A stretch of DNA of 43,237 nt, from the NCBI GenBank assembly GCA_905233345.1, contig CAJODQ010000020.1:1-43237 (forward strand), given 5' to 3'. How positions within the stretch are numbered: position 1 is the stretch's first letter; each line of letters begins with the position of its first letter. Shown here piece by piece: positions 3,913 through 18,904 of the stretch. The notes under the pieces were generated by a model, which saw only the letters and a program-made list of their open reading frames with translations, had not been told where the DNA came from and did not search any database. This DNA is from an uncultured Bacteroidales bacterium. Lineage in GTDB: Bacteria > Bacteroidota > Bacteroidia > Bacteroidales > UBA932. The position numbers and the translations under genes were made by a program.

Positions 3913-5475
3913 ATGAAAAATATCATCAGAATCTCTCTCTGCGCCGTAGTCCTCACGCTGGCAGCCGCCTGCGCCAAGGATTATATGGAAACCACTCCGG
4001 AGAGCTCCGTCTCTCCTGCTACCATCTTCTCCACGACCGACAACGTGAAACTTGCGATCAACGGTATGTGCAAGATGATGACCACCCAGTACCTGAGCAC
4101 CCAGGGCCTCAACGGCGAGGGTACCATCAAGACTTGGTACGGTAACTTTGGTAACGACCTCCAGCGTAGCAACCAGACCGGTTGGGCTTCCCTTTGGAAC
4201 CACACCATGCACGAGAGTGTGAACTCTACGTATCTGGTCTATCCCTGGTACTACTATTATAAGATCATCGGCAACGCCAACCAGGTGATCGAGAACGTGG
4301 ACAATGCCGAAGGTTCCGAGGCTGAGCGTCAGTTCTACAAGGCACAGGCCCTCGTCTTCCGCGCCCATGCCTACACGATGCTGATGCAGTTGTATGCCTA
4401 TCGTTGGGCCGACAGTAACAACGGCAGCGCCAATGGTGTGGCCCTTCGTCTGAGCAGCGCTGCCAACGAGGACGGTTCCTATGACATCGCGCTGTCCACC
4501 CAGGCTGAGTGCTACGCCCAGATCTATGCCGACTGCGACGAGGCCATCAGCCTCTTCAAGTCCAGCGGTATCGACCGTGACGCTGACGAGTTCTACAAAC
4601 CCAACCTGAACGTGGCCTATGCCGTGAAGGCCCGCGCCGCCCTCGTCCGCGAGGACTGGGCGACCGTTGTCGCCTGCGCGCCGGAAGCCCGCAAGGGTCA
4701 CCCGCTGATGAGCAAGAGCCAGTATATGGACGGCGGTTTCTCGGATGAGAACAACGAATGGATCTGGGGTGTCTATGAGGCCTCCGACCAGACCATCTAC
4801 TACTATTCTTTCTTCGCTTATCAGGCATCCAATGCTTCTTCTTCGATGCAGCGTACTTATCCGCTGGCCATCAGCAAGGAACTGTACGATCAGATTCCGG
4901 AGACCGATGCCCGTCGTGACATGTGGCTGGGACCCACGGAAGAAGAATGGGCTGCCTGCGATGCCAAGAATATGGCCAATGCCGCATTCAAGAAACGTGC
5001 GCAGAATAAGTTCGGTGACAAGCTTTACAGCACCAGCCAGGTGTATGCGTACATGCAGGTCAAGTTCCTGTGCACCTTCCTGCCGGGCGGTGGTAGCTTC
5101 AACATCTACCGCAGCGCCGAGATGTATCTCGCCGAAGCCGAGGCTCGTTGCCATCTGGGCGGCCAGGACGCTACGGTCCAGAGTCTGCTCAAGGAGCTCA
5201 ACAAGAACCTCAACCCTTCGTATGACTGCACCAAGACCGGTGCCGACCTGCTGAAGGAAGTCAAGCTGTATCGCCGTATCGACCTCTGGGGCGAAGGCTT
5301 CGACTGGTATGACTACAAGCGTTGGAATGAGCCCATCATCCGCAAGACCAAAGCACAGGGTGGTAGCTTCCAGAGCGCTTTCGCCGTGACCATCAATGTG
5401 GGCGACGGCAACAAGTGGACGTGGAAGATCCCCAGAAACGAGACCGACTACAACAAGCTGATCTCGCTCGAATAA
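3913..5475 (+). CDS. SusD/RagB-family outer-membrane nutrient-binding lipoprotein
   Basis: This 520-residue surface lipoprotein should form the lid of the upstream SusC barrel and capture its substrate. The ATG at 3913 was preferred over the in-frame ATG at 3904 because an AAGGAG (3898-3903) touches the earlier codon but sits 9 nt before the later one, and the later start gives a clean lipoprotein signal with lipobox LAAAC (Cys20). The N-terminal region (KDYMETTPESSVSPATIFST) is typical of SusD. Helical repeats follow (for example the AQALVFRAHAYTMLMQLYAY stretch), and the C-terminal RagB region contains YRSAEMYLAEAEARC and RRIDLWGEGFDWYDYKRW, both classic for RagB/SusD proteins. It is co-transcribed with susC and closed by a strong terminator. 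Confidence 0.96.
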   Translation: MKNIIRISLCAVVLTLAAACAKDYMETTPESSVSPATIFSTTDNVKLAINGMCKMMTTQYLSTQGLNGEGTIKTWYGNFGNDLQRSNQTGWASLWNHTMHESVNSTYLVYPWYYYYKIIGNANQVIENVDNAEGSEAERQFYKAQALVFRAHAYTMLMQLYAYRWADSNNGSANGVALRLSSAANEDGSYDIALSTQAECYAQIYADCDEAISLFKSSGIDRDADEFYKPNLNVAYAVKARAALVREDWATVVACAPEARKGHPLMSKSQYMDGGFSDENNEWIWGVYEASDQTIYYYSFFAYQASNASSSMQRTYPLAISKELYDQIPETDARRDMWLGPTEEEWAACDAKNMANAAFKKRAQNKFGDKLYSTSQVYAYMQVKFLCTFLPGGGSFNIYRSAEMYLAEAEARCHLGGQDATVQSLLKELNKNLNPSYDCTKTGADLLKEVKLYRRIDLWGEGFDWYDYKRWNEPIIRKTKAQGGSFQSAFAVTINVGDGNKWTWKIPRNETDYNKLISLE

Positions 5476-5500
5476 GCTTCCGTCCAAGGATTATATGATG

Positions 5501-5535
5501 AGCGGGCGACTCTTCGGAGCCGCCCGCTTTTTTTT
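5501..5535 (+). terminator. Rho-independent terminator of susCD
   Basis: AGCGGGCG (5501-5508) pairs with CGCCCGCT (5521-5528) around a 12-nt loop, followed by a run of eight T (5528-5535). It lies 25 bases past the susD stop and separates susCD from the plug lipoprotein gene. Confidence 0.92.
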
Positions 5536-5563
5536 GCCGCTGAAGATATGTGAGTATTTTTCG

Positions 5564-5571
5564 TAACTTTG
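5564..5571 (+). promoter_or_regulatory. -7 box of the plug-domain lipoprotein gene
   Basis: TAACTTTG matches the Bacteroidetes -7 consensus TAnnTTTG exactly and ends 25 nt before the ATG at 5597. It lies downstream of the susCD terminator, so the gene has its own transcript. Confidence 0.6.
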
Positions 5572-5596
5572 CAAAGATGCTTATTATTTGATCAAA

Positions 5597-5986
5597 ATGA
5601 AAAAGACATTTCTTCTCGTATTTTCCCTACTGCTGCTCTGCAGTTGCGGCGGCGGCAAATTGATCAATGACGGTGCGAACAGCGACCAGCCCTGGCTGAA
5701 CTACCGCACGCTCGACGAATACATCGAGGTCATCGCTCCGCACTTCTTCGAAGGTGCCGCTGCACGCGGCGTCAGTACGGTCAACGGCAGCACCACGCCG
5801 CTGCTGATGGTCGACGGCTTTGAAGTCCAGAGTTTCGACAGCATCGACATGCACGACATCGTGTCCGTCGAAGTCATCACCGACTCCCGCGTCGCCAGCT
5901 ACGGTGTACGCGGTGCCAATGGCGTTGCCCTGGTGACCACCAAGGCCTCCATGAACGCCAATAAGAAATATAAAGACAGGAATTAA
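5597..5986 (+). CDS. Small lipoprotein consisting of a stand-alone TonB-receptor plug-like domain
   Basis: This is a 129-residue protein. The ATG at 5597 is chosen over a TTG three codons earlier. A lipoprotein signal ends at Cys17 (LCSC), followed by Gly-Gly-Gly. The mature part matches the second half of a SusC plug: LLMVDGFEV (69-77) corresponds to MYVIDGVPY of the upstream SusC. Residues 83-116, from IDMHDI to GVALVTTK, follow the SusC plug pattern (DIESMTVL, ALYG, RASNGVILITTK) without gaps of note. There is no barrel and no carboxypeptidase-like domain, so it cannot be a transporter itself. The function is unknown; it could contact SusD, a SusC barrel or TonB at the outer membrane. Its stop is one base from the end of the convergent gene. 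Confidence 0.85.
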   Translation: MKKTFLLVFSLLLLCSCGGGKLINDGANSDQPWLNYRTLDEYIEVIAPHFFEGAAARGVSTVNGSTTPLLMVDGFEVQSFDSIDMHDIVSVEVITDSRVASYGVRGANGVALVTTKASMNANKKYKDRN

Positions 5987-7297: not shown

Positions 7298-8356
7298 TCA
7301 GTATACTTTTGCGACTTCGCGGCCCTGCATGACGCTCAGGCCGTTGTGCGCCAGTGCGCCCATCTCGTCTTCGCCGGGATAGATCTTCACCGGAGCGATC
7401 CAGTCCACATATTTGGCCAGGTCGGCCATCATGCCCTTGCCGTAGGCGATGCCGCCGGTCACGAGGATGGCGTCGACCTTGCCCTTGAGGACGCAGGCCA
7501 TGGCGCCGATTTCCTTGGCAATGTTATAGAGGTAGGCGTCGGCGATGAGCTTGAAGTGCGGATCGTCGACCATCTTGCGCTCGATTTCCATGAAGTCGTT
7601 GGTACCCAGATGGGCCACCGTGCCACCTCGGCCGTTGATCATCTTCTTGACTTCCTGCGGGGTATATTTGCCGCTGAAGCAGATGTCAGCCAGCTGCTGG
7701 GCCGGCAGGCCGCCGGAGCGCTCGGGACTGAACGGGCCGTCGCCGTTGAGGGCGTTGTTGGTGTCGATCACGCTGCCCTTGCAGTGTGCGCTGACCGAGG
7801 TGCCGCCGCCCAGATGGACCACGATGAGGTTCAGATCTTCGTACTTCACGCCCTGCTGGGCCGCATACGTCTTGGCGATGGCTTTCTGGTTGAGCGCGTG
7901 GAAGATGGAGATGCGCTTGAAGAGCGGATGGCCGGCTATGCGGGCCAGGTCGCAGAGCTCGTCGACCACAACCGGATCGGTGATGAAGGCACGGCAGCCG
8001 ATCTCCTTGGCGATGGCGTGGGCCAGGATGCCGCCCAGGTTGCTGGCGTGCTCTCCGTAATCGCCGGAACGCAGGTCGGCCAGCATGCGGTCATTGACCT
8101 CGTACACGCCGGAAGGAATGGGGCGCAGCAGGCCGCCGCGGCCTACGATGGCTGAGATCTCGTTCAGCACGATGTCGTTCTCGTTCAGCGCGTCGACGAT
8201 CATTCTCTTCCGGAACTCGAACTGCGAGACGACGTTGGGGTATTTCCCGATTTCCTCGGCGGAGTGGCGGAGGGTCTTGGTGAACACCTGTTCGTAGTCT
8301 TCGAACACCGCGATCTTGGTCGAAGTGGAGCCGGGATTGATAGCAAGAATCTTCAT
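7298..8356 (-). CDS. buk: Butyrate kinase (acyl-phosphate kinase)
   Basis: This 352-residue ASKHA-family kinase converts butyryl-phosphate and ADP to butyrate and ATP in the cytosol. The phosphate-1 motif is at the N-terminus (ILAINPGSTSTKIAVF, residues 3-18). Other hallmarks are VGRGGLLRPIPSG, IVVHLGGGTSVSAH and VTGGIAYGKGM. The length fits Buk (about 355) and is shorter than acetate kinase (about 395). It lies 9 nt after ptb and is part of ackA-ptb-buk. Buk enzymes often also accept isobutyryl- and isovaleryl-phosphate, so branched-chain acid production is an alternative physiological role. Confidence 0.95.
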   Translation of the reverse strand: MKILAINPGSTSTKIAVFEDYEQVFTKTLRHSAEEIGKYPNVVSQFEFRKRMIVDALNENDIVLNEISAIVGRGGLLRPIPSGVYEVNDRMLADLRSGDYGEHASNLGGILAHAIAKEIGCRAFITDPVVVDELCDLARIAGHPLFKRISIFHALNQKAIAKTYAAQQGVKYEDLNLIVVHLGGGTSVSAHCKGSVIDTNNALNGDGPFSPERSGGLPAQQLADICFSGKYTPQEVKKMINGRGGTVAHLGTNDFMEIERKMVDDPHFKLIADAYLYNIAKEIGAMACVLKGKVDAILVTGGIAYGKGMMADLAKYVDWIAPVKIYPGEDEMGALAHNGLSVMQGREVAKVY

Positions 8357-8365
8357 GATGTCGGC

Positions 8366-9271
8366 TTATTTGGCGGTCAGGGCTGCCAGGGCGATGGAGT
8401 TCAGTTTGGTGTCGATGCTGTCGGCGCGGCTGCTGAGCACGCAGGGGGCCATGCCGCCGGCCATGATGGCTGCCTGACGGACGCCCGTGCAAAGCTTCGA
8501 GTTGACCTTGTAGAACACGTTGGCGCTCTCAATGTTCGGGAAGAGGAGGCAGTCGGCGTCGCCGGCCACTTCGCTCTTGACTTTCTTGATGGCGACGGAT
8601 TCCGGGTCGATGGCCACGTCGATGGCCAGCGGACCGTCGACCACGCAGCCGGCGATCTGTCCGCGGTCTGACATCTTGGCCAGCAGGGCGGCCTCGACGC
8701 AGGCGGGCATGCCGTCGAGCATCTGCTCGGTGGCGGCGATGGCAGCCACCTTCGGCTTCTCGATGCCGAGGGCCTTGGCGGTGGCGGCGAGGTACTTGCA
8801 GATGGCCAGCTTCTGCTTGAAATCAGGCAGCGGAATGACGGCCATGTCGCTGACGATCATGAGCTTGTGGTAGTTCGGGTTCTCAATCACGGCCACGTGG
8901 CTCAGAACGGCCTTCGGCGGCAGCAGGCCGCGCTCCTTGTTGAGGATGCCGCGCATGTATTTGTCGGTGCTGCAGAGACCCTTCATCAGGATGTCGCCTT
9001 CACCGTCGCGGACCATGCCCACGGCCTGAGCGATGGCGTCCAGCTCTTTCTTGTTGTCGATGATCGTGAAGATGGACGGGTCGATCTTCTCGTTCCGGCA
9101 GACTTCGAGGATCTTGTCCTTGTCGCCCACAAGGGTGACTTCGACGATGCCTTTCTCAATGGCCTTGGCGGCGGCGGTGATGGTGTGATCGTCTACGCCC
9201 CAGGCGGCGACCATGCGTTTCTTATCCCGTGAACGGAGGGTTTCAAAGAGTTCGTTAAAGTTGGTAATCAT
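8366..9271 (-). CDS. ptb: Phosphate butyryltransferase
   Basis: This 301-residue protein of the phosphate acetyl/butyryl-transferase family interconverts butyryl-CoA plus phosphate and butyryl-phosphate plus CoA. Features seen are the N-terminal VAAWGVDDHTI, EVTLVGDKDKI, DILMKGLCSTDKYMRGIL, the LSHVAVIENPNYHKLMIVSDM stretch typical of Ptb, and near the C-terminus GPLAIDVAIDPES. The length matches Ptb (about 300), not the longer Pta. Neighbours are ackA (12 nt upstream) and buk (9 nt downstream), which supports the assignment and a joint transcript. No Pta gene is present in the window. Confidence 0.95.
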   Translation of the reverse strand: MITNFNELFETLRSRDKKRMVAAWGVDDHTITAAAKAIEKGIVEVTLVGDKDKILEVCRNEKIDPSIFTIIDNKKELDAIAQAVGMVRDGEGDILMKGLCSTDKYMRGILNKERGLLPPKAVLSHVAVIENPNYHKLMIVSDMAVIPLPDFKQKLAICKYLAATAKALGIEKPKVAAIAATEQMLDGMPACVEAALLAKMSDRGQIAGCVVDGPLAIDVAIDPESVAIKKVKSEVAGDADCLLFPNIESANVFYKVNSKLCTGVRQAAIMAGGMAPCVLSSRADSIDTKLNSIALAALTAK

Positions 9272-9283
9272 TGTAGTATTCAG

Positions 9284-10438
9284 TTATTTATTGTTTACGA
9301 TGTTCATGGTGTCGGTGGCGATCACCAGCTCTTCGTTGGTGGTCACGGCCACGACTTTCACTTTCGAGCTGGGACGGCTGATGAGCACGTCCTTGCCGCG
9401 CACCTGGTTGACCTGCGGGTCGAAGTCCACGCCGAGGTATTCGAGGCCTTCGCAGACCTGTTCGCGCACCGGCCATGCGTTCTCGCCGATGCCGCCGGTG
9501 AAGACGATGAGGTCAACGCCGCCGAGGACGGCCGCGTAAGCACCGACATATTTCTTGATGCTGTATGCCAGCATCTTGCGGGCCAGGATGGCGCGCTCGT
9601 TGCCGCTCTTGGCGGCGGCTTCGATGTCGCGGTTGTCGGCCGAAACGCCCGAGATGCCGAGGAGGCCGCTCTTCTTGTTGAGCAGGGCGTTGACCTGATT
9701 GTAGTCCAGGTTTTCTTTCTCCTGGATGAAGGTCACGGCGCCGACGTCGAGATTGCCCACGCGGGTACCCATCACCACGCCTTCGACCGGGGTGAAGCCC
9801 ATCGAAGTATCGATGCTCTCGCCGTTCTTGATGGCGGTGATGGAACTGCCGTTGCCCAGGTGGCAGGTGATGATGCGGCTCTTCTTGATGTCCATGCCGA
9901 CGAATTTGCAGGCCTTCTCCGCGACGTATTTGTGGCTGGTGCCGTGGAAACCGTAGCGGCGCAGGCGGTATTTTTCGTAGAAACGGTAGGGAAGGGCGTA
10001 CATGTAGGCGTAGTCCGGCATGGTCTGGTGGAATGAGGTGTCGAACACGGCAACCTGCGGCTTGCCGGGCATCAGTTTTTCGACGGCCTGGATGCCCATC
10101 AGGTTGGCCGGATTGTGGAGCGGTGCGAGCTCGCAGCAGCGGCCGATCTTGTCCATCACGTCGGGGGTTACCCGCACGCTGCCGGAGAAGAATTCGCCGC
10201 CGTGTGCCACGCGGTGGCCGACAGCCTCGATGCGGTCGAGCGAGTCGATGACGCCTTCTTCGGGGTTGACGAGGGCGTCAAGCACGATTTTGATGCCGGC
10301 GGCATGGTCGGGGACTTCGGCTTCGCCGATCCGTTCGACAAGGCCCTTTTTCATGAGGGTGAAATCTTCGGCGCTCCGCATGTCAAGCAGCTGGTATTTC
10401 AGCGAGGAGCTTCCGCAGTTCAGGACAAGGATAATCAT
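9284..10438 (-). CDS. ackA: Acetate kinase
   Basis: This is a 384-residue acetate kinase (acetyl-phosphate plus ADP to acetate plus ATP). The ATG at 10438 starts the protein directly at the phosphate motif MIILVLNCGSSSLKYQ; a TTG nine codons earlier is unlikely. Conserved elements are HRVAHGG, LAPLHNPANL, VAVFDTSFHQTMP, RYGFHGTSHKYV, ITCHLGNGSSI, MGTR and the C-terminal TTNEELVIA. After MGTR the protein has VGNLD, whereas many family members have a GD-x-D pattern; I cannot tell whether this affects activity. It is the first gene of ackA-ptb-buk-(5988-7295). Acetate kinase linked to Ptb instead of Pta is not the usual pairing. Confidence 0.95.
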   Translation of the reverse strand: MIILVLNCGSSSLKYQLLDMRSAEDFTLMKKGLVERIGEAEVPDHAAGIKIVLDALVNPEEGVIDSLDRIEAVGHRVAHGGEFFSGSVRVTPDVMDKIGRCCELAPLHNPANLMGIQAVEKLMPGKPQVAVFDTSFHQTMPDYAYMYALPYRFYEKYRLRRYGFHGTSHKYVAEKACKFVGMDIKKSRIITCHLGNGSSITAIKNGESIDTSMGFTPVEGVVMGTRVGNLDVGAVTFIQEKENLDYNQVNALLNKKSGLLGISGVSADNRDIEAAAKSGNERAILARKMLAYSIKKYVGAYAAVLGGVDLIVFTGGIGENAWPVREQVCEGLEYLGVDFDPQVNQVRGKDVLISRPSSKVKVVAVTTNEELVIATDTMNIVNNK

Positions 10439-10470
10439 GTTATTTTTCGTTTTTTGAGTTGTCAATCAGA

Positions 10471-10478
10471 CAAAGTTA
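10471..10478 (-). promoter_or_regulatory. -7 box of the ackA-ptb-buk operon
   Basis: The minus strand carries TAACTTTG (CAAAGTTA on +), a perfect TAnnTTTG, ending 32 nt before the ackA ATG. The comEC remnant starts divergently at 10515. Confidence 0.6.
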
Positions 10479-10514
10479 GGAAAAATAATCGTACCTTGCA
10501 GAAAAATCGAAAGG

Positions 10515-11572
10515 ATGTGGCAAGGTAGGGGAATCGTGCTGTGCGCGCTGGCCGTTCTGGCCGGCAATGTGTTGGGAGATCTGCTGACGTTGTCGCCCGT
10601 CGTCTATCTTTCTCTCTCGCTGATGTTTGCCATCGTTGCGACCTGGCAGCCCCGCAGGGGCTGGCTGCTGGCCTGCCTGCTGATGCTGGGGGCGGCTTCG
10701 GTGCAGCTGGGGCGGATGCCATCGGCGGCTGGTCCCTCTGCGCTTGCTCTCTGGGCTTCCGGGGTCAAGGCCTCTTTTTCGACCTGGCTGGGCGGGTTGC
10801 TGCCGCCGGGCGACGAACGGGCCGTGCTGCAGGCTTTGTCCATCGGCGACAAAAACGGTCTGACGCGGGATCTGCGCCTCGCGTACCGCGAGAGCGGCGC
10901 AATGCACCTGCTGGCGTTGAGCGGCCTGCATGTCGGGCTGGTGTATGCCTTGCTGGGTTTTCTGCTGCGGCCTCTCGGCGGGCATCGCGCCGCCCGGCTG
11001 CTGCGCAGCCTGCTCATCCTGGGGCTGCTGTGGACCTATGCGCTGGTGACCGGCATGAGCGCGTCCATCTCCCGCGGCTGATGATTACGTTCTACGAAAT
11101 TTCCGGCCTGTTGTCGGGTGACCGGGACGGGTTGTCGGCACTGGCGGGCAGCGCCCTGATGCTCATGCTTTTCCGGCCGGAGTCACCGCGCGACATCGGT
11201 TTTCAGCTGTCGTATACGGCCGTGCTGTCCATCCTCCTGCTGCATCCCTGGTTGAAGGGCCTCCTGCAGACGCGTTCGCGGCTGTTGCGTCGAGTGTGGG
11301 AGCTGCTCAGCGTCAGCATCTGCTGCCAGGCCACCTGCGGCGTCCTGGCCTGGCACTATTTCGGCACCTTTCCGCGTTATTTCTTGCTGACAACGCTCTT
11401 TGCGATCCCCCTGACCACCGCCGTCATGTACGCCACGGCAGCCACCGTCGCCACTGCCGGCCTCTCCAGCCTGCTGCCTGTCCTGACACCCGTCGTCGCT
11501 GCTGCCGCCGAAGCCCTCCGCTGGCTCATCCATCTGCTCAACACCCTCCTCCGCCTCATCGCCTCCCTGTAA
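10515..11572 (+). pseudogene. comEC: Frameshifted and truncated comEC/rec2 DNA-uptake channel gene
   Basis: The first frame (10515 to a TGA ending at 11081) encodes hydrophobic segments and the ComEC signature: ALSIGDKNGL, then GAMHLLALSGLHVGLVYALL, ending SASISRG. The homology resumes at once in another frame from about 11080 (LMITFYEISGLLSGD, then DIGFQLSYTAVLSILLL) and stops at 11572. One missing base in the run CGCGGC near 11077-11082 would restore an RALMIT reading, the usual family wording. Even restored, the product would be about 350 residues. It lacks the C-terminal metallo-beta-lactamase part and final membrane segments of a full ComEC, ending at LIASL where family members continue. 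A 111-bp repeat begins 18 bp downstream. The frameshift alone could be a sequencing error; the truncation is an additional lesion. Confidence 0.75.
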
Positions 11573-11590
11573 TTATTTAACCTCTCCTTT

Positions 11591-11701
11591 CGCTGCAATG
11601 TACGCATCAGCCGTTCAGCGACTTACACAAAGTCCTCCCCTCTGTGGCGGAGGGGAGGACTTTATGTAAACATCAGTCAATCAGTTGCGTCCGTTGCAGC
11701 G
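11591..11701 (-). repeat. 111-bp REPIN-like nested palindrome, copy A
   Basis: The ends CGCTGCAATGTACGC (11591-11605) and GCGTCCGTTGCAGCG (11687-11701) form a 15-bp terminal inverted repeat with two mismatches. Inside, a 14-bp perfect stem (11629-11642 with 11650-11663) has a 7-nt loop. Read on the minus strand it aligns gap-free with copies C and D over 111 bases. It fills the gap between the comEC remnant and the convergent membrane-protein gene, where the hairpin could also stop transcription. Confidence 0.93.
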
Positions 11702-11711
11702 CATAAAAAAG

Positions 11712-12125
11712 TTAAAAGAGCACCTTGATGACGAACCAGAGGCCAATGGCGCCCAAAAAGACGATGATGATGGTGGGCCAGAGGCCGAGCGTGGCGGCCA
11801 TCGAATTCCAGACCAGATCGAAGTTGAGGGCCAGCCAGATACAGAGCATCGTGAAGAGCAGGATCCCCAGCGCATACAGGAGCGACTTGCCGCGGTAACC
11901 GAGAATCAGGAACCAGGCTTCCAGCACCAGCGCGCCGCCCAGCAGATAGACCAGGCCTTTCCATCCCGAGAGTACCCGCTCGAAAAACGTTTGGACCGCG
12001 GGGACTGCAAAATAACTGAGGACACCGACTGCCACCAGCGCAATGGCGAGCAGCGTGCCGTTGGTTTTCCGGTCGGTCTTGTCCTTGGTCTTGGTTGTGC
12101 TCTTGGTCTTGGATTGTGATGCCAT
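11712..12125 (-). CDS. Small membrane protein of unknown function
   Basis: The 137-residue product starts at the ATG at 12125. A charged, Lys/Thr-rich N-terminus (about 20 residues, SKTKSTTKTKDKTDRKT) precedes about four hydrophobic segments: GTLLAIALVAVGVLSYF, the GLVYLLGGALVLEAWFLIL region, a SLLYALGILLFTMLCIWLAL region and a TIIIVFLGAIGLWFVI region. I do not recognise the family. It starts 13 nt after the GntP permease stop on the same strand, so it is probably in the same transcript and may be an accessory to that transporter, which is inference from position only. Confidence 0.7.
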   Translation of the reverse strand: MASQSKTKSTTKTKDKTDRKTNGTLLAIALVAVGVLSYFAVPAVQTFFERVLSGWKGLVYLLGGALVLEAWFLILGYRGKSLLYALGILLFTMLCIWLALNFDLVWNSMAATLGLWPTIIIVFLGAIGLWFVIKVLF

Positions 12126-12138
12126 CAAACGAAGGGTA

Positions 12139-13497
12139 TTAGAAGATCAGGCTGAGGATAAACACTTCCAGCATCGCAGCCAGGCCAATGACCAGCGTCA
12201 TCAGGGTCTGGGTGCGGTAGCCGTCCCGCAGGGTCAGCCGGCCAAAGCTGGTGACCACCCAGAAGTACGAGTCGTTGGCGTGGGAGACCGTCATAGCGCC
12301 GGCGCCGATGGCGACCACGACCAGTGCGACATCGACTGGTGTCACAAAACCCAACGCGGCCATCAGCGGCGCCAGGATGCCTGCCGTTGTGGTGATGGCC
12401 ACCGTCGAGGAACCTTGAGCGCTCTTCAGCACCGCGGACAGCAGGAACGGGAAGAAGATACCCACGGCTTTAGACATATCGGCGTGGGTTGTAATGAAAT
12501 GCACCAGGTCAGACGAACCAATGACCTTGCCCAGTACACCGCCCGCCGCCGTCACGAAAAGGATGGGCCCGACGTTTTTCAGCGTGTCGTTGGTCAGCGA
12601 ATAGAAGTCTGCGCCTTTGCCGGAGCGGAACAGTTGGATGATGGCCAGCACGACCCCTACCGATAGGGCCATGATGGGCGTTCCCAGAAAAACCAGAATG
12701 TCGGCGAAACGGCCTTCTGCATGCATCATGGAAACGAAAGATGCGATGGCCATCAACAGAATGGGCACGAGGATCGGCGCAATGGCGTCCAACGCGCCGG
12801 GCAATTTGCCGTATTCGGCTTTCAGTTCTTCATAGGTCTTCACGGTCTCGCCGCTGGCTGCCGTTTCGTCGGCACTCTTGACTTTCTGTCCGATGCGCCG
12901 GGCAAAGAAATACCCCGCGATCAGCGGAAAAACGGAGCAAAGGGCGCCCATGCCGATGACCAGCAGCAGGTTGTGCTCCATGCCAAGTGCCTGCGCTGCA
13001 GCGAGCGGGCCGGGCGTGGGCGGAATGAACACATGCGCGATGAACAGGCCGCACGACAGGCACATCGTCATCGCGACGCTTGATGTGCCGGTCTGCCACA
13101 CCATCGCCTTGCGGATGGGATTGAGCATCACAAATCCGCTGTCACAAAACACGGGGATCGAGACCACCCAGCCCATCAGCTCCATGGCGAGTTCCGGATG
13201 CTTGCGCCCTACCAGCCGGATGACCAGGTCGGCAAGTTTGAAGGCGGCGCCCGTCTTCTCGAGCACGGCGCCGATAAAGGCGCCCAGGATAATGACGATG
13301 CCGATGCTTGTGAAGGTCCCGGCAAAGCCACTGCCGATGACGCCCGGTATCTGTCGGAGCGGAATCCCCGCCAGCAGCGCCAGCACCAGCGAAACAGCCA
13401 GGATGGCCAGGAACGGATGCACCTTGAGCTTTGATATGAGCAGGATCATGGCAACGATGGCCACGACAAATGCAATGATGAGGGGGATGCCGGTCAT
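12139..13497 (-). CDS. GntP-family permease (gluconate or related hydroxyacid:H+ symporter)
   Basis: This is a 452-residue polytopic inner-membrane transporter. The ATG at 13497 (MTGIPLIIAFVVAIVAM) is chosen; an open frame continues upstream, but it crosses repeat copy B and is not protein-like. Family marks are FTSIGIVIILGAFIGAVLEKTGAA, the IPVFCDSGFVMLNPI loop typical of GntP, HVFIPPTPGPLAAA, and the re-entrant QGSSTVAITTTAGI region. Members move gluconate, glycerate, D-serine or similar small hydroxy/amino acids; no gluconate kinase or dehydrogenase is adjacent, so the substrate is open. It is divergent from the phosphoesterase at 13716, with copy B between them. A weak box (TAACTTG on minus, 13508-13514) lies 10 nt before the start. 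Confidence 0.93.
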   Translation of the reverse strand: MTGIPLIIAFVVAIVAMILLISKLKVHPFLAILAVSLVLALLAGIPLRQIPGVIGSGFAGTFTSIGIVIILGAFIGAVLEKTGAAFKLADLVIRLVGRKHPELAMELMGWVVSIPVFCDSGFVMLNPIRKAMVWQTGTSSVAMTMCLSCGLFIAHVFIPPTPGPLAAAQALGMEHNLLLVIGMGALCSVFPLIAGYFFARRIGQKVKSADETAASGETVKTYEELKAEYGKLPGALDAIAPILVPILLMAIASFVSMMHAEGRFADILVFLGTPIMALSVGVVLAIIQLFRSGKGADFYSLTNDTLKNVGPILFVTAAGGVLGKVIGSSDLVHFITTHADMSKAVGIFFPFLLSAVLKSAQGSSTVAITTTAGILAPLMAALGFVTPVDVALVVVAIGAGAMTVSHANDSYFWVVTSFGRLTLRDGYRTQTLMTLVIGLAAMLEVFILSLIF

Positions 13498-13552
13498 AAC
13501 AGTTGGCAAGTTACGAAAAAAAACGATGTCCTGTGCCGTCCGCCCCAATTTC

Positions 13553-13663
13553 CGCTGCAATGTACACATTTGATTAACAGTCGTTTGCGAGAACTCCTCC
13601 CCTTGAAAACAATGGGGAGGAGTTCTCGCAAAGTGTTGAAAGACTGCTGTGTACATTGCAGCG
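13553..13663 (+). repeat. 111-bp REPIN-like nested palindrome, copy B (most symmetric)
   Basis: The flanks TTTCCGCTGCAATGTACACA (13549-13568) and its exact complement (13648-13667) make a 20-bp perfect inverted repeat. A second, inner stem of 19 bp is also perfect (13584-13602 with 13614-13632) and has an 11-nt loop. Both arms carry the TGTACA version of the terminal sequence, unlike copies A, C and D, which have one TGTACA-type and one CGGACGC-type arm. It lies between the divergent GntP and phosphoesterase genes. Confidence 0.93.
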
Positions 13664-13702
13664 GAAAAAGGCGAAAAGCTTGCTGAAACAGGAAGAAATC
13701 TG

Positions 13703-13710
13703 TAAATTAG
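13703..13710 (+). promoter_or_regulatory. -7-like box directly before the phosphoesterase start
   Basis: TAAATTAG (two mismatches to TAnnTTTG) ends 5 nt before the ATG at 13716, the same geometry as the better boxes at 16884 and 17478, which would give a leaderless mRNA. Confidence 0.3.
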
Positions 13711-13715
13711 CAAGC

Positions 13716-15059
13716 ATGAAACGCAGAGATTTTATCAAGACTTCGGCGCTGCTGGCTGCGGCGGCGGGTTCGGGTGAACTACTGAAAGCATCTACCTTGG
13801 CGGCGGAACCAACTGATGACCAGCTGATCATTTCGGCACCGATGCTGCAAAACTTCGCGGCCACATCCATGGGCGTCGCCTTTGCGGTGAGTGCACTGGC
13901 GAATGGCTATGTACTTGTGGGTGAGCGCCCCGACCTGTCGGATGCCCGGAAAGTGCTGTGCGGCGGCTACCGCGTCACCGACTTGGATGACCGGGTCATC
14001 CGCGTCCGCCTGACCGGCCTCAAGCCGTCTACGAAATATTACTACCGGATTGGCGCCGACCGTATCAGCTATAAAGGCGGATACAAGATGAAAGTTCTTG
14101 GTAACGAAGAAGATCCGCGAACATATAGCTTTACGACGGCCGGCGAAGGATCGGATGCGCATTTCTGTGTCATCAACGACACGCATGTCCGCATGGAGCC
14201 TTTCGGTCTGGCCATCGAGAAGATTGCAGAACTGGCACCGGCCTGCGTCATTTGGAACGGCGACGCCAGCAACGTGGAGGAGACGGTCGAGGACCAGATC
14301 CGCATCTTCCTCAATCCGGCCATCAAGCGGAAGGACTATGCCGCTGAGATACCGTATCTTTTCTGCCCCGGCAACCACGACAACCGCGGCATGGCCAACC
14401 GGCATCTGGAGCGCGTGTGGATGTTCCGCCAGCCCGAGGAGCGGCTGCCCCGTGACTGGGACCTGGGCCGGAACTATGCTGTCCGCCTGGGCGACGTGGC
14501 ACTGATTGGCCTGGACACTGCTGAGGATAAGTTGGACACCAACCCGAAATTCGCTGGCCTGTTCACCAGCGGGCCCTATCGCGAAGCGCAAACGGAATGG
14601 CTGCGCGACGCACTTGCGCGCGAAGAAATCCGCACGGTCCCTTTCCTCGTGGCGTGCTGTCACATTCCGCTCTTCGACAGCAATCCCCGGCACAATCCGG
14701 GCGATGTAGCCCCCGCTGACAGCGATCCGCAGTATAGCACGGACTATGCCTACTGGCAGCGCACTTGTGCCCGCATGTGGGCACCGCTGCTGGAAGCGGC
14801 AGGCTGCCAGCTGGTTATCACTGCGCACCAGCACCGCTACCGCTATGATGCCCCGACGCTCGAGCGCCCTTGGGCACAAATCGTTGGCGGCGGGCCGGAG
14901 ATGGGCTTCACCGGCTCTGGCGACAAGCGTCGCGAAGACGTTGGAAAGTTTCCTACTGTCATTGAAGGTGCTGTCCGCAACGGCCATCTGGAAATTGCCG
15001 TCCACAATCTTGCGACCGGTACTGTCCGGGACCGCTTCTCGTTCGAACCCCGTCGATAA
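13716..15059 (+). CDS. Tat-exported calcineurin-like metallophosphoesterase
   Basis: The 447-residue protein starts at 13716 with a twin-arginine signal (KRRDFIKTSALLAAAAGS). Residues about 35-142 resemble the Fn3-like N-terminal domain of purple acid phosphatases (LTGLKPSTKYYYRI, YSFTTAGEG). The catalytic domain holds all metal-ligand blocks: NDTH (Asp155, His157), WNGDAS (Asp183), CPGNHDN (Asn220, His221), VACCHIPLFD and TAHQHRYR. Tat export fits a metalloenzyme folded before transport to the periplasm. The substrate is unknown; phosphomonoesters or diesters are possible. Repeat copies B and C flank the gene on both sides. Confidence 0.92.
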   Translation: MKRRDFIKTSALLAAAAGSGELLKASTLAAEPTDDQLIISAPMLQNFAATSMGVAFAVSALANGYVLVGERPDLSDARKVLCGGYRVTDLDDRVIRVRLTGLKPSTKYYYRIGADRISYKGGYKMKVLGNEEDPRTYSFTTAGEGSDAHFCVINDTHVRMEPFGLAIEKIAELAPACVIWNGDASNVEETVEDQIRIFLNPAIKRKDYAAEIPYLFCPGNHDNRGMANRHLERVWMFRQPEERLPRDWDLGRNYAVRLGDVALIGLDTAEDKLDTNPKFAGLFTSGPYREAQTEWLRDALAREEIRTVPFLVACCHIPLFDSNPRHNPGDVAPADSDPQYSTDYAYWQRTCARMWAPLLEAAGCQLVITAHQHRYRYDAPTLERPWAQIVGGGPEMGFTGSGDKRREDVGKFPTVIEGAVRNGHLEIAVHNLATGTVRDRFSFEPRR

Positions 15060-15109
15060 CGCTCCTGTTCTTTCATCTCCAGCCATCCTGCCTTGTCCCG
15101 CCCTTTTTG

Positions 15110-15220
15110 CGCTGCAACGGACGCGGCTGACTGACAGTCGCTTATAGGAAGTCCTCTCCTCTACTGAGAAGGGGAGGACTTTCTGTAAGTCGCTGAACGA
15201 TTGCTGTGTACATTTCAGCG
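15110..15220 (+). repeat. 111-bp REPIN-like nested palindrome, copy C (next to the RAYT gene)
   Basis: The element starts CGCTGCAACGGACGC and ends TGTGTACATTTCAGCG, with one base change (TTT for TTG) relative to copies B and D. The inner stem pairs 15149-15160 with 15170-15181, with one G-T wobble and a 9-nt loop. The arm also contains GACTGACAGTC. It lies 121 bp upstream of the RAYT start, in the same orientation as that gene. Confidence 0.92.
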
Positions 15221-15254
15221 GAAGGAGGGGCGGAGGGATGGACGCGAAACTTGA

Positions 15255-15286
15255 TTTGCATTTTTCAGAAACGTTCCCGAACTTTG
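15255..15286 (+). promoter_or_regulatory. Candidate promoter of the RAYT gene
   Basis: TTTG (15255-15258) is followed after 20 nt by GAACTTTG (15279-15286), one base off TAnnTTTG. This leaves a leader of roughly 50 nt before the ATG at 15342, and it lies outside repeat copy C. Confidence 0.35.
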
Positions 15287-15341
15287 AACAGCAGGAGTTG
15301 TATGAAGCGGCTCCAGACAAATCAATCAAGAGGGGAACGAT

Positions 15342-16259
15342 ATGAAGGGAAGGAAAATACCGATTGTCAAGGCAGATACAGTACATCACGTCTATCAGAA
15401 TACCCGGAACGGATATTTGCTCTTTTATTCCGTCAAGGACTATTTGATTCTTTTTTCAGTCATCACGGTCATTGCTCGCCGCTACGGGATTCAGATCCTG
15501 GGTATCTGCATGATGCCCGACCATATTCACCTCATCGTCTATGTGTGTGATCCTGAACGGTTCAGGGCATTTGTCAGAGACTACACCAGTATTTTCACCA
15601 GAATCTACAACCATCATTACGGCTTGTCCGGCTCACTGTTCAACACCCCCTTCGGGTGCGCGCCCAAGATTATCCACAAGAAGATCCGGTCGGCCATCGC
15701 CTATGTGTATAACAATCCGGTGGAAGGACATCTGGCGCTCAGGGCTGAGGAAGACCGCTGGAACTTCCTGGCCTATGCCGCCGAGAAATATCCTTTCTCG
15801 GAGAAACTGCGTATTGACAAGGCTCGCTGGGCGCTGCGTAAGGCGCTCTATACCGTCAAGGCCTGCAGAAAAAACTGTAGATGGATGGATTATACTGAAA
15901 TAGAGAAAGTTACTGACGGACTTTCCTCTCGCGAACTTCAACAGTTTACGGACTACACGATCCGGAAATACAATTGCATCGACTATGATGCGGCTATCAA
16001 CTATTATGGGTCATACGACAAAATGGTGACAGCCCTGAATGCCAATACCGGCAGCGAGTATGACTTGACGGAAGACACATTCGCTAAGGATTATCGGATC
16101 TATAAGACGATGATCTTGGCACTATGTCATGGAATGAAGATGGAAACGATGGAAAATGTGCTCAGTCTTCCCCGTGCGAACAGGTATCGACTGAAACAGA
16201 GGCTGATACGAAACAAGGGCGCGACTGACAAGGAAGTCGCCAAGTTGCTACGCTTATGA
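15342..16259 (+). CDS. RAYT: REP-associated Y1 HUH transposase
   Basis: This is a 305-residue single-domain IS200-like nuclease with a C-terminal extension. The N-terminal motif TVHHVYQNTRNGYLLF (13-28) is typical of RAYTs. The metal-binding HUH motif is PDHIHLIVY (His61, His63). The probable catalytic tyrosine is Tyr121 in YVYNNPV, aligned with the Y-x-x-x-NPV block of this family. The C-terminus (about 255-305, ending NKGATDKEVAKLLRL) looks like a helix-turn-helix or DnaA-C-like DNA-binding tail. RAYTs are single-copy, domesticated relatives of IS200 thought to mobilise REP/REPIN palindromes. Four matching 111-bp elements lie within 4 kb, one directly upstream. Its A/T-richer codons contrast with neighbours. 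Its last 6 bp overlap the convergent phosphatase gene. Confidence 0.92.
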   Translation: MKGRKIPIVKADTVHHVYQNTRNGYLLFYSVKDYLILFSVITVIARRYGIQILGICMMPDHIHLIVYVCDPERFRAFVRDYTSIFTRIYNHHYGLSGSLFNTPFGCAPKIIHKKIRSAIAYVYNNPVEGHLALRAEEDRWNFLAYAAEKYPFSEKLRIDKARWALRKALYTVKACRKNCRWMDYTEIEKVTDGLSSRELQQFTDYTIRKYNCIDYDAAINYYGSYDKMVTALNANTGSEYDLTEDTFAKDYRIYKTMILALCHGMKMETMENVLSLPRANRYRLKQRLIRNKGATDKEVAKLLRL

Positions 16260-16721
16260 GTGGGGAATGGCAGTGAGCAGGGCGCGGCAGCCTGTGAGGA
16301 TGTCGGCATAGGCGGTTTCGAAATCGCGGGTGTACCAGGGATCAGCTACGTTGCGGTGTTCGCCAGCGTAATCAAGCAGCAAGTGAATCTTGCCTTTCGG
16401 GTCGCCGCCTGCGATGCGCTGGATGCCGCGGATGTTGGCCTCGTCCATGGCAATGATCAGATCATATTTGTCGTAGTCGGATGCTTTCATCTGACGTGCA
16501 GTCCTTTGTCCGTCGTAAGAGATACCATAACGGCGTAAGATTGCAGCAGCCGGCGGATAGATCGGATTGCCCCATTCTTCCTCGCTGACGGCAGCCGAAG
16601 CTATCTCAAACTCGTCGGAACGGCCGGCCTCGGCGGCCAGATGCTTCATGATGGCCTCGGCCATCGGGCTTCTGCAGATATTTCCCAGACAGATAAACAG
16701 AATCTTCTTCTTTGTCGCCAT
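16254..16721 (-). CDS. Low-molecular-weight protein-tyrosine phosphatase
   Basis: This is a 155-residue cytosolic phosphatase, the standard length. The start at 16721 (MATKKKILFICLGNICRS) puts the CX5R loop at residues 11-17 (CLGNICR, then Ser18). The acid loop is DPWYTRDF near the C-terminus. IIAMDEAN and ASAAVSEEEWGNPIYPPA are typical of the family. It is convergent with the RAYT (6-bp overlap) and divergent from the glycosylase gene, with repeat copy D in between. In Bacteroidetes such enzymes often act on tyrosine-phosphorylated proteins of polysaccharide export, but no such genes are here. Confidence 0.95.
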   Translation of the reverse strand: MATKKKILFICLGNICRSPMAEAIMKHLAAEAGRSDEFEIASAAVSEEEWGNPIYPPAAAILRRYGISYDGQRTARQMKASDYDKYDLIIAMDEANIRGIQRIAGGDPKGKIHLLLDYAGEHRNVADPWYTRDFETAYADILTGCRALLTAIPHS

Positions 16722-16726
16722 GACTG

Positions 16727-16734
16727 CAAAGATA
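16727..16734 (-). promoter_or_regulatory. -7 box 5 nt before the phosphatase start
   Basis: The minus strand reads TATCTTTG (CAAAGATA on +), a perfect TAnnTTTG. Only 5 nt separate it from the ATG at 16721, so transcription should begin at or next to the start codon. Confidence 0.55.
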
Positions 16735-16743
16735 GTCATTTTT

Positions 16744-16854
16744 TGCTGCAACGGACGCAACTGACTGACAGATGTTTACATAAAGTCCTCCCCGCCGCCA
16801 TAGAGGGGAGGACTTTCAATAAGACGCTGAACATCTGATGTGTACATTGCAGCG
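16744..16854 (+). repeat. 111-bp REPIN-like nested palindrome, copy D
   Basis: The element starts TGCTGCAACGGACGC (first base changed from C) and ends TGTGTACATTGCAGCG. The inner stem AAAGTCCTCCCC / GGGGAGGACTTT is perfect over 12 bp with an 11-nt loop. It is about 85-90% identical to the reverse complement of copy A with no gap. It lies between the divergent phosphatase and glycosylase genes and leaves their -7 boxes intact. Confidence 0.93.
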
Positions 16855-16883
16855 GAAAGTTGGGGGAATTGCCAGAAGATGTG

Positions 16884-16891
16884 TAACTTTA
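16884..16891 (+). promoter_or_regulatory. -7-like box 5 nt before the glycosylase start
   Basis: TAACTTTA (one mismatch to TAnnTTTG) ends 5 nt before the ATG at 16897. Confidence 0.4.
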
Positions 16892-16896
16892 CGGTC

Positions 16897-17466
16897 ATGG
16901 ATACGGAACGACATCCTTTTGAACCTTTCCTGCCGGAAAAGGCAACCATCCTTTTTCTCGGGAGTTTTCCGCCGCAGCCCAAGCGGTGGTCAATGCCGTT
17001 CTATTACCCGAACTGGAACAACGATTTCTGGCGGGTGATGGGCCTGTTGTTTTTCGGCGACAAAGACCATTTTGCCGTGCCCGGCCAGAAGCGCTTCGAC
17101 CAGCGCAAAATCGAGGCTTTCTGCAGGCAACAGGGCCTTGCACTCTACGACACGGCCTGCGAAGTCAGGCGCCTGAAAGACAATGCTTCCGACAAGTTCC
17201 TCGAAGTTGTCACGCCGACGGATCTGCCGGAACTGCTCGCACGCATCCCCGCTTGCCAAACGTTGGTGACCACCGGCCAGAAGGCGACCGACGTCATCGT
17301 CGAAACCTTCGGCTGCGTGGAGCCGCCCGTCGGGGGTCAGGTTGAACTAACTACGGGCCTTTGCGCGCTAAGCTTCTGGCGGATGCCTTCCACCTCCCGT
17401 GCGTATCCGCTCGCCCTTGAGAAGAAGGCTGCCTACTACCGGCGGCTATGGCCCCATTTGCGCTAA
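16897..17466 (+). CDS. Uracil-DNA glycosylase superfamily protein (hypoxanthine/mismatch-specific type)
   Basis: This is a 189-residue DNA-repair glycosylase. The start at 16897 (MDTERHPFEPFLPEKATILF) is chosen because upstream codons run into repeat copy D. Motif 1 is FLGSFPPQP with YYPNWNNDFWRVMG, as in the branch of the superfamily described as hypoxanthine-DNA or mismatch-specific glycosylases. Motif 2 is the C-terminal LSFWRMPSTSRAYPLALEKK, which inserts into DNA. The LVTTGQKATDVI stretch fits the central strand. It should excise deaminated or mismatched bases. The next gene starts 25 bp downstream but has its own -7 box. Confidence 0.88.
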   Translation: MDTERHPFEPFLPEKATILFLGSFPPQPKRWSMPFYYPNWNNDFWRVMGLLFFGDKDHFAVPGQKRFDQRKIEAFCRQQGLALYDTACEVRRLKDNASDKFLEVVTPTDLPELLARIPACQTLVTTGQKATDVIVETFGCVEPPVGGQVELTTGLCALSFWRMPSTSRAYPLALEKKAAYYRRLWPHLR

Positions 17467-17477
17467 CGCTTTTTTTG

Positions 17478-17485
17478 TAACTTTG
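17478..17485 (+). promoter_or_regulatory. -7 box 6 nt before the MATE gene start
   Basis: TAACTTTG is a perfect consensus box ending 6 nt before the ATG at 17492. It should drive the MATE-kinase-ettA-obgE operon with an essentially leaderless 5' end. Confidence 0.55.
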
Positions 17486-17491
17486 CCAAAT

Positions 17492-18904
17492 ATGGCAGAA
17501 AACATTCCTCTTGAACTGGGCACGGAGCCGGTCGGCAAACTGCTGAAGAAGTACGCGATGCCAGCGATCATCGCGATGACCGCCTCCTCGCTCTACAATA
17601 TGGTGGACAGCATCTTCATCGGGCAGGGATGCGGGCCGATGGCCATTTCCGGCCTGGCGCTGACCTTCCCGCTGATGAACCTCTCCGCCGCGTTCGGTAC
17701 GCTGGTGGGCGTGGGCGGCGCCACCCTGATCTCGGTGCTGCTTGGCCAGAAGAACTACCCCGTGGCCAAGAAGGTGCTGAGCAACGTGTTCATCCTGAAC
17801 GTGCTGGTCGGCGTCCTTTTCGCCACCATCGCCTTGGTTTTCCTGAACCCCATCCTGCGCTTTTTCGGCGCGAGCGACGCCACGCTGCCTTACGCCCGCA
17901 GCTACATGATTCCCATCCTGCTGGGCAACGTGATCACGCACCTGTACTTCGGCCTGAACTCCATCGTGCGTGTGTCGGGGCATCCGCAGAAGGCCATGTA
18001 TGCGACCATCCTGACGGTGACGCTCAACATGATCCTCGACCCGATCTTCATCTTTGTCTTTAAGATGGGCATCCAGGGCGCCGCCATCGCGACGGTCATT
18101 TCCCAGGCCACTTCGCTGGTCTGGATCATGTACATCATCTGCGACAAGCGCGAGTTCCTGCACCTGTCGCATGAAACCTTCGGCCTGGACTGGGGCATCG
18201 CCCAGCGTTCGCTGGCCATCGGCCTGGCGCCGTTCCTGATGAACGTGGCCTCGTGTTTCGTGGTGATCTTCATCAACAACCAGTTCAAGAAATACGGCGG
18301 CGACCTGGCCATCGGCGCCTACGGCATTGTGAACCGGCTGGTATTCCTGTTCCTGATGATCGTCATGGGCTTCACGCAGGGCATGCAGCCCATTGCGGGC
18401 TATAATTACGGCGCGAAGCAATACGACCGCGCGCTGGAAGTGCTGAGGCTGACCATCAAGTGCGCCCTGGCGGTGACATTCACCTGCTTCCTGGTGGGCA
18501 TGCTCATCCCCCGTGCCGCGGTTTCGCTCTTTACGCGTGATGAGGAACTGATCGGCCTGGCGGCGCATGGCTTCCGCATTACGGTGCTGGTCTTCTGCAT
18601 CGTCGGCCGGCAGATGGTTATCTCGAACTTTTTCCAGAGCATCGGCATGGCCAACAAGGCCATCTTCCTGTCGCTCTCCCGTCAGCTGATCTTCCTGCTG
18701 CCTTTCTTGGCCATCCTGCCAATCTGGTTCGGTGCGGATGGCGTGTGGTTCAGCATGCCGGCTTCCGACCTCGCGGCGGTGGTGGTCTCGGAGATCATGC
18801 TGGCTGGTCTCAAGAAGGATTTCCGGCGTGAAATGGCGGCCGCGGCGAAACCTGAGGAACCTGCGACGGTACCCGAACCCATAGAAGTAACCGATACAAT
18901 TTGA
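17492..18904 (+). CDS. MATE-family multidrug/cation-coupled efflux transporter
   Basis: This is a 470-residue inner-membrane protein with about 12 hydrophobic segments in two similar halves, the normal MATE length. Marks include KYAMPAIIAMTASSLYNMVDSIFIGQ at the start of the N-lobe (quoted in part), LVGVGGATLISVLLGQ, and in the C-lobe IGAYGIVNRLVFLF and MGFTQGMQPIAGYNYGA, the classic G-x-QP-x-x-G-x-NYGA block. It should export cationic compounds using Na+ or H+. A charged tail (about 445-470) is rich in Ala, Pro and Glu. The kinase-like gene follows after 6 nt. Confidence 0.96.
   Translation: MAENIPLELGTEPVGKLLKKYAMPAIIAMTASSLYNMVDSIFIGQGCGPMAISGLALTFPLMNLSAAFGTLVGVGGATLISVLLGQKNYPVAKKVLSNVFILNVLVGVLFATIALVFLNPILRFFGASDATLPYARSYMIPILLGNVITHLYFGLNSIVRVSGHPQKAMYATILTVTLNMILDPIFIFVFKMGIQGAAIATVISQATSLVWIMYIICDKREFLHLSHETFGLDWGIAQRSLAIGLAPFLMNVASCFVVIFINNQFKKYGGDLAIGAYGIVNRLVFLFLMIVMGFTQGMQPIAGYNYGAKQYDRALEVLRLTIKCALAVTFTCFLVGMLIPRAAVSLFTRDEELIGLAAHGFRITVLVFCIVGRQMVISNFFQSIGMANKAIFLSLSRQLIFLLPFLAILPIWFGADGVWFSMPASDLAAVVVSEIMLAGLKKDFRREMAAAAKPEEPATVPEPIEVTDTI

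Follow-up and report, generated by a model that had tools for sequence, protein, structure and literature searches.

The window analysed here is a stretch of 43,237 nucleotides from an uncultured Bacteroidales bacterium (contig CAJODQ010000020.1 of assembly GCA_905233345.1). Its subject is a family of 111-nt palindromic elements and the RAYT-like transposase gene that lies among them. The genome that holds the window (G000; 2.32 Mb, 89% complete) was compared with others, denoted G001, G003 and so on. Copy A (11591..11701, minus strand) is located in a gap between convergent genes, and copies B (13553..13663, plus strand) and D (16744..16854, plus strand) in gaps between divergent genes. Copy C (15110..15220, plus strand) is located 121 nt upstream of the transposase gene, which covers 15342..16259 on the plus strand. 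The coordinates and the 111-nt core length given for the four copies in the first-pass annotation are correct, and the alignment is gapless. Copy A scores 119 bits with R1, a covariance model tuned to G000 and run on both strands; B, C and D are likewise recovered by covariance model. The absence of a fifth copy in the window, also part of that annotation, is upheld by the model, which gives just A-D at E <= 0.1. Known RNA families matched window positions 10400-18000 only as sub-threshold animal microRNA hairpins. The copies were said to end in CGCTGCA/TGCAGCG inverted repeats; inverted ends are indeed present, but D begins TGCTGCA and C finishes TTTCAGCG, so the ends differ among the four copies.

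Folded as single-stranded DNA, copies A-D reach z-scores of -4.7 to -11.2 against dinucleotide shuffles, equalled by none of 200 shuffles. The two-tier palindrome with an inner hairpin described earlier is confirmed: pairing obeys the rule i + j = 112, with 16-bp outer arms (1-16/96-111), 16-nt internal loops, a 20-bp inner stem (33-52/60-79) and a 7-nt loop. In an alignment of 12 G000 copies 85.8% of the cells are paired, versus 37-49% after a shift of the partner by 1-3 bases. Both-side changes occur in 11 of 36 pairs, a count that 28/500 shuffles attain, and the shuffle control is thus not clean for every measure; the covariation score is attained by 0/500. Reverse-strand loci were left unturned in alignment A4 and in R1, where 4 of the 12 rows are reversed; Watson-Crick counts are unaffected, and orientation was corrected for the analyses of flank conservation, flank covariation, copy identity and foot motifs. 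In-register pairing of outer and inner arms is 78-91%, versus 9-41% when slid by 1-2. At inner-stem positions 44-45, almost all G000 copies (of 14) read CC/GG and almost all G003 copies (of 49) read GA/TC; entire copy populations have switched while pairing was preserved. Mean identity among copies is 0.675 in G000 (14 copies) and 0.763 in G003 (49 copies) despite the constant 111 nt, and the length of the element is therefore far more rigid than its sequence.

The unit probably extends beyond this core. In G003 the left flank has a C-rich stretch and TTTT, the right flank AAAAA followed by GGG, and this conservation reaches ~10 nt. The recurring T-rich left and GGAA-type right flanks of the first-pass annotation probably belong to the unit, because conservation continues ~10 nt past the core on each side, because in G003 the core-adjacent base and its counterpart in the palindrome covary (59% paired versus 38% expected, 0/500 shuffles, p < 0.002), and because both flanks are missing from the empty counterpart of site A in G001. 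No such covariation was detectable in G000, and positions beyond the T/A run pair no more often than expected. The probable full unit at A measures ~131 nt (11581..11711, minus strand; core plus ~10 nt per side, TTAA on both flanks), an approximate boundary drawn by eye from the G001 site and the conservation profile. Occupied and empty sites differ in net size by ~131-135 nt at A, 121-122 at site C13:20070 and ~143 at site C13:36863, so the boundary is not fixed; the whole element is about 120-140 nt, with weaker outer ends.

The gene between C and D encodes a protein of 305 aa, which is assigned to the RAYT-like Y1/HUH transposases by Pfam, NCBIfam and an AlphaFold (AF2) model searched with Foldseek. 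Its motifs are DHIH (HUH) and YVYNNP (Tyr). The HUH and NPV-type tyrosine reported in the first reading are well founded: H61, H63 and Tyr121 are invariant in 25/25 aligned proteins (the window's included; partial genes and some others stood outside the alignment), and NNP follows the tyrosine in the window's protein. Pfam Y1_Tnp is matched at E 1.2e-6 (29 bits, over the cut-off of 23), and NCBIfam REP_Tyr_transpos is matched at E <= 1e-3 by 25/25 aligned family members. The model, built from 10 sequences, has a mean pLDDT (predicted local distance difference test) of 81 and resembles IS608, ISDra2 and the E. coli TnpA_REP with its REP (repetitive extragenic palindromic) hairpin (4er8) at a probability of 1.00 and E ~0.01, with no match at E <= 0.001. 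Together with the Pfam match, this resemblance indicates a predicted Y1 transposase fold. The C-terminal tail of ~160 residues (past ~residue 145) is mostly helical in the model and has invariant positions. A sequence search of solved structures gave IS200-type transposases as best matches (E 0.007 and above), and none of the phage families match the enzyme. G004 and G023 each carry four different RAYT-family genes in one genome, whereas RAYTs are described as single-copy genes (PMC8049555).

Copies within genomes and at orthologous sites

A BLAST search with copy D detected 10 further copies in G000. The covariance model detected 15 strong copies and two weak ones, B and three others having escaped BLAST. 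Strong copies number 50 in G003, the most complete congener of the set (98%): 49 have a length of exactly 111 nt and one has 112 nt. One weak match and one 56-nt form come in addition. In the latter (L202 2045-2100; G003:C3:123144-123199) the inner hairpin is lost and the two ends are kept. Strong copies are those with a best E <= 1e-15, a cut-off picked after data inspection. The many copies that the first-pass annotation called for are thus present, and they are intergenic as it proposed: 62 of the 65 strong copies of the two genomes touch no called gene and three overlap one by 2-8 nt, while random 111-mers from the same loci are intergenic in 7.6% of cases (genes were called with a simple hexamer caller, with settings picked after data inspection). 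REPs are usually described at >100 per genome (PMC2817692); the 15 and 50 strong copies are fewer.

Relatives were compared at nine of the 15 G000 copies, and at three of the nine some relative has a clean empty site; copies therefore come and go. Site A is empty in G001, where both flanks align, and occupied in G024; B, C and D are occupied at the same sites in G001. Site C13:20070 is empty in G003 and G024, holds an element in G018 and ~1 kb of other DNA in G011 and G023, and by eye has a terminator-like hairpin instead in G001, G007 and G008. Site C13:36863 is empty in G008 and carries the window's family in G000, G001, G004 and G018, a different family with GTGGC ends in G024 and G015, and a hairpin of uncertain type (by eye) in G003. 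At C11:96731 a GTGGC-type family is found in G024 and G001 and a terminator-like hairpin (by eye) in G003 and G004; the flanks are inverted in G008, and the G007 sequence ends there. One flank of C13:26164 is inverted in all three relatives that have both flanks (G004, G008, G024), and a flank of C34:18998 is inverted in G001, G004 and G024, with G007 lacking one flank. A second family, with GTGGCAC ends, thus occupies intergenic sites where G000 has the CGCTGCAA family (L229 ~9163-9274, L243 ~2390-2501); the family assignments at the compared sites, like the terminator-like hairpins, were made by eye. The three empty sites bear only weakly on the earlier remark that no target-site duplication is visible: read by eye they give TTAA, GTC and nothing obvious, and hence no fixed duplication.

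The position of the copies relative to genes bears on a rival explanation, namely that selection maintains the elements at gene ends as bidirectional transcription terminators or 3'-end hairpins and that they do not move. Among G003 copies with both neighbours called, 24/49 lie in convergent gaps, against 32/193 element-free gaps (p 6e-6), and 3/49 in divergent gaps, against 38/193 (p 0.015); the 193 gaps come from G000 and G003 loci and are not length-matched. The terminator-like hairpins seen by eye in some relatives at C13:20070 and C11:96731 agree with this explanation as well. However, no convergent bias is seen in G000 (2/14 convergent, 4 divergent, 8 tandem), B and D lie in divergent gaps, unrelated loci within a genome share a mean identity of 68-76%, and immobile hairpins account neither for the absences at orthologous sites nor for the flanking of RAYT genes and the co-divergence reported below. 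Terminators of this kind are therefore improbable. As main identity, an intrinsic terminator was rejected with a simple scan, which scores just C of the four copies as terminator-like; termination could be a secondary role of the elements.

A domesticated enzyme has also to be weighed: the RAYT would be a host regulator that binds the elements, and the spread of copies would be historical. The divergence of the copies within each genome is in keeping with this, as is the description of RAYTs as domesticated and vertically inherited genes (PMC8049555). Against it, the closest copy pair in G003 is 97% identical and the occupied sites differ between species; this reading as a whole is highly improbable.

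The segment between A and C has the opposite orientation in G024 to that in G000 and is bounded on both sides by an element (L103 6023-9695 versus window 11583-15226), a pattern that would be expected from recombination between two oppositely oriented copies. Gene blocks of the region are reordered between species; elements and breakpoints have few gaps in common, and the evidence that the elements cause the reordering is therefore weak. Variable local gene order and imperfect palindromes in four successive gaps, of a size that we take to be attC-like, are the points in favour of integron attC-like sites. Against these, copies occur in both orientations over many contigs in G000 and G003. Integron attC sites were rejected after an integrase search that gave matches over cut-off in 0/10 genomes and weak matches in 10/10, likewise in 14/14 controls; such sites are scarcely credible here.

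Association and co-divergence with the enzyme family

The comparison covered 25 genomes of the genus and 16 of other genera. The enzyme family comprises 30 genes in 14 genus genomes, at a cut-off picked after the data, in which the best matches per genome split into E <= 1.2e-48 and E >= 1e-9. Matches to R1 at E <= 1e-3 occur in 14/14 genus genomes with the enzyme family, in 3/11 without it (G011, G018, G019; Fisher p 1.5e-4) and in 0/16 genomes of other genera; those in G010, G013, G016, G019 and G022 were counted without one-by-one reading. Where the orthologous RAYT clade is present (clade 1; 59-100% identity), strong copies are found in 7/7 genomes.

A two-tier palindrome of ~108-114 nt lies within 160 bp of 24 of the 30 enzyme genes (13 detected by R1, 11 by a palindrome scan with thresholds picked after data inspection). 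At the other clade-1 loci a copy is positioned 117-126 nt upstream of the RAYT in 5/6 and 68 nt upstream in the sixth. Other clades show the same two tiers on one or both sides of the gene, with ends GTGGCAC, CGCTGGAG, CGTGGAGG, TTGGCGGCTAAC, TGTGCAC and more. In 22 scanned loci (121,668 bases) the scan gave 16 hits near the gene and 10 elsewhere, compared to 17 hits in 1,216,680 bases of a dinucleotide-random control and none in a less fair single-base shuffle control; some of the distant hits look like chance in coding DNA. No palindrome was found within 160 bp of five short distant Y1 genes (G000:C12, G003:C8, G004:C3, G007:C32, G024:C148). In a search for related loci with a slightly relaxed scan, palindromes were detected within 150 bp at 6/9 loci with >= 33% identity (L138-L141, L143, L144), of which L138 is the G001 contig and L140 apparently the G013 contig already counted; L142 and L145 have two-tier palindromes only farther off. 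The RAYT of L146 (33% identical, 5001-5912) has on both sides copies of one short near-perfect palindrome of the GGGGTGCACC type, several in all, and not the two-tier element. Dispersal of the enzyme's own palindrome family is seen for the window's family in several genomes and for other families at few sites only.

Enzymes and elements have diverged together. A Mantel test of protein against element identity gave r 0.669 for 23 pairs (excluding the partial gene G022:C48), and 0 of 9,999 permutations were as high (maximum 0.336). In 10/23 pairs the closest element goes with the closest enzyme, and in 7 more it comes from the same end-type clade. This tracking of RAYT clades by one architecture also bears on the proposal that the family is a miniature inverted-repeat transposable element (MITE) whose parent, with CGCTGCAA ends, would be an unrelated DDE or tyrosine-recombinase element. 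The family would suit this by its inverted terminal repeats and its short body without coding sequence. Across 57 loci (326,475 bases, not whole genomes), however, 128 of 132 end-motif matches fall within listed elements, two of the four outside matches derive from an element held in an overlapping locus, and no longer parent element was found; with no constant target duplication at the three empty sites either, a MITE is very improbable.

Two observations concern neighbouring genes in the window. A ComEC-type competence gene (PF03772; 10515-11572) occupies two reading frames here and one frame in 7/7 relatives, the split being a recent frameshift or an assembly error. At 7298-10465, two acetokinase-family genes flank a phosphate acetyl/butyryl transferase gene in a row (Pfam).

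Relation to known systems and proposed mechanism

The elements are best explained as REPIN-like and moved by the neighbouring RAYT, to which a probability of about 0.83 is given; the chemical steps are deduced from the enzyme family. In REPINs as described by Bertels and Rainey 2011 (PMC3116915), two REPs form an inverted doublet around a spacer of fixed length that pairs. In both systems, conserved 16-nt ends stand inverted around a spacer whose sequence varies, whose length is constant and whose pairing is kept by compensatory changes; in both, copies are dispersed between genes and some adjoin the RAYT. Unlike those REPINs, the element here has neither a GT[AG]G foot nor self-folding halves, its 111-nt core is longer and the protein lineage is different. 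The foot motif is found within -12 to +4 of either end in 1/65 copies; it occurs anywhere in the element or the 20 nt around it in 27/65, with no position common to more than 4. Shuffled sequences fold as well as the six halves of copies A, B and D do (z -0.58 to +0.85). From both results it follows that the element is one long two-tier hairpin and not two REP hairpins. The pair has the plan of a REPIN/RAYT pair, but two tested features of canonical REPINs failed. The designation as a Bacteroidales REPIN/RAYT system thus stands with regard to the many intergenic copies, the Y1 RAYT-like enzyme, co-occurrence, co-divergence and Bacteroidales kin, and does not stand for a canonical REPIN. Relatives of the host include Bacteroidales, some of them from the rumen of goat or yak or the reticulum of buffalo.

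TnpA_REP subclass 2.6 (Bertels group 5) is reported to be mostly from Bacteroidetes, its genes being flanked by 'atypical' structures without GT[AG]G that were found by hand and have copies elsewhere in the genome (Quentin 2018, PMC6006769). Among published descriptions this is the nearest one found, and the general idea is therefore not new. Bacteroidetes host and flanking structures without GT[AG]G that have dispersed copies are common to both. However, subclass 2.6 has the printed motifs NH[LIV]H and YIH[QN]NP, a median length of 179 aa and structures called weaker, in contrast to DHIH, YVYNNP and 305 aa here; the window's enzyme thus does not match in printed motifs and length, and may or may not be a member of this subclass. 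Subclass 2.4 (group 4) in the same source is alike in its YIxNNP tyrosine motif, its occurrence in Bacteroidetes and its 'double foot' structures symmetric at both ends, and unlike in its GT[AG]G foot, NH[IFV]H and median of 194 aa. The TnpA of IS608 and ISDra2 (IS200/IS605) shares the Y1 fold, the HUH motif and a single Tyr, with Foldseek alignments of ~95-140 columns. Here, in contrast, the enzyme is encoded outside the element and has an additional C-terminal tail, and one nested hairpin takes the place of the two subterminal hairpins described for those elements (PMC8266576). E. coli TnpA_REP is reported to require GTAG and to cleave at CT (PMC8266576). A search of the openly accessible literature found no paper on Bacteroidales RAYT elements by title or abstract start; the words themselves occur in PMC3733652.

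Several results, besides the missing foot, weigh against movement by the neighbouring RAYT. The match of the enzyme to NCBIfam REP_Tyr_transpos (E 6.4e-8, 32.6 bits) is under the cut-off of 80. The first-pass annotation expected species without the RAYT to lack copies, and this is only partly so: strong copies persist in 4 of 18 genus genomes in which a clade-1 RAYT was not found (G007, G011, G015, G018, all drafts; p 7e-4 for the comparison with the 7/7). At E <= 1e-3, 10/18 genus genomes without the orthologous RAYT have an R1 match, contrary to a strict link; some of these loose matches are probably other element families. G018 (87% complete) has 16 copies above 80 bits and no clade-1 RAYT found, and its gene may have been lost in assembly. 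The orthologous place in G011 (95% complete) has neither the RAYT nor copy C, and only 16 bp separate the ends of the matches to the genes on either side, yet 10 copies are retained in the genome at E <= 1e-6 (44-93 bits); these scores fit decay after loss of the RAYT, though R1 is tuned to G000. Six of the 30 enzyme genes are without a nearby palindrome by the scan (one, G015:C77, has a sub-threshold palindrome by eye, one is at a contig end and one is a split gene). The nearest element belongs to another clade in 6/23 pairs, and the co-divergence could partly reflect physical linkage. Each difference in presence may be a gain or a loss; copy A occurs in both G000 and G024, and its absence from G001 may therefore be a loss.

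In the proposed mechanism the 111-nt element would be a mobile but non-autonomous hairpin, and its spread would be the work of the RAYT-like Y1/HUH enzyme whose gene lies between C and D. A single-stranded copy, for example on the lagging-strand template, would most likely fold as one two-tier hairpin. The enzyme would read the conserved outer arm (CGCTGCAAcGgACgCA) plus the fixed geometry, Tyr121 would cut at the HUH metal site, and the strand would be joined at a new place, mainly between genes. The rigid length, together with the variable inner hairpin, would hold the two ends in register, and related RAYT clades of the genus would each have diverged with an element of the same plan bearing its own end sequence. 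The data show the structure, the copy number, the position between genes, the presence or absence at orthologous sites, the association and the co-divergence; we infer the single-stranded substrate, the cleavage and the identity of the mover. A wider proposal, which we regard as evenly balanced, is that Bacteroidales hold a separate RAYT branch in which the unit that is recognised and moved is the entire length-locked ~111-nt two-tier hairpin and not a GTAG-footed REP. Several RAYT lineages per genome (up to 4) would then each drive their own family, and the families would share intergenic niches and replace one another, or a terminator, at gene ends across species.

The mechanism by which RAYTs spread repeats is still poorly understood, and the tested enzymes of E. 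coli, Stenotrophomonas and Marinomonas are reported to depend on a GTAG guide to differing degrees (PMC8266576). Here 14 genomes of a single genus present 30 enzyme genes, of which 24 adjoin palindromes of common geometry with differing ends. Since the length is rigid and the inner stem changes freely, the data suggest that geometry is read by the enzyme. Common geometry combined with differing ends thus provides a natural experiment on which part of a hairpin each enzyme reads and on how repeat families share a genome.

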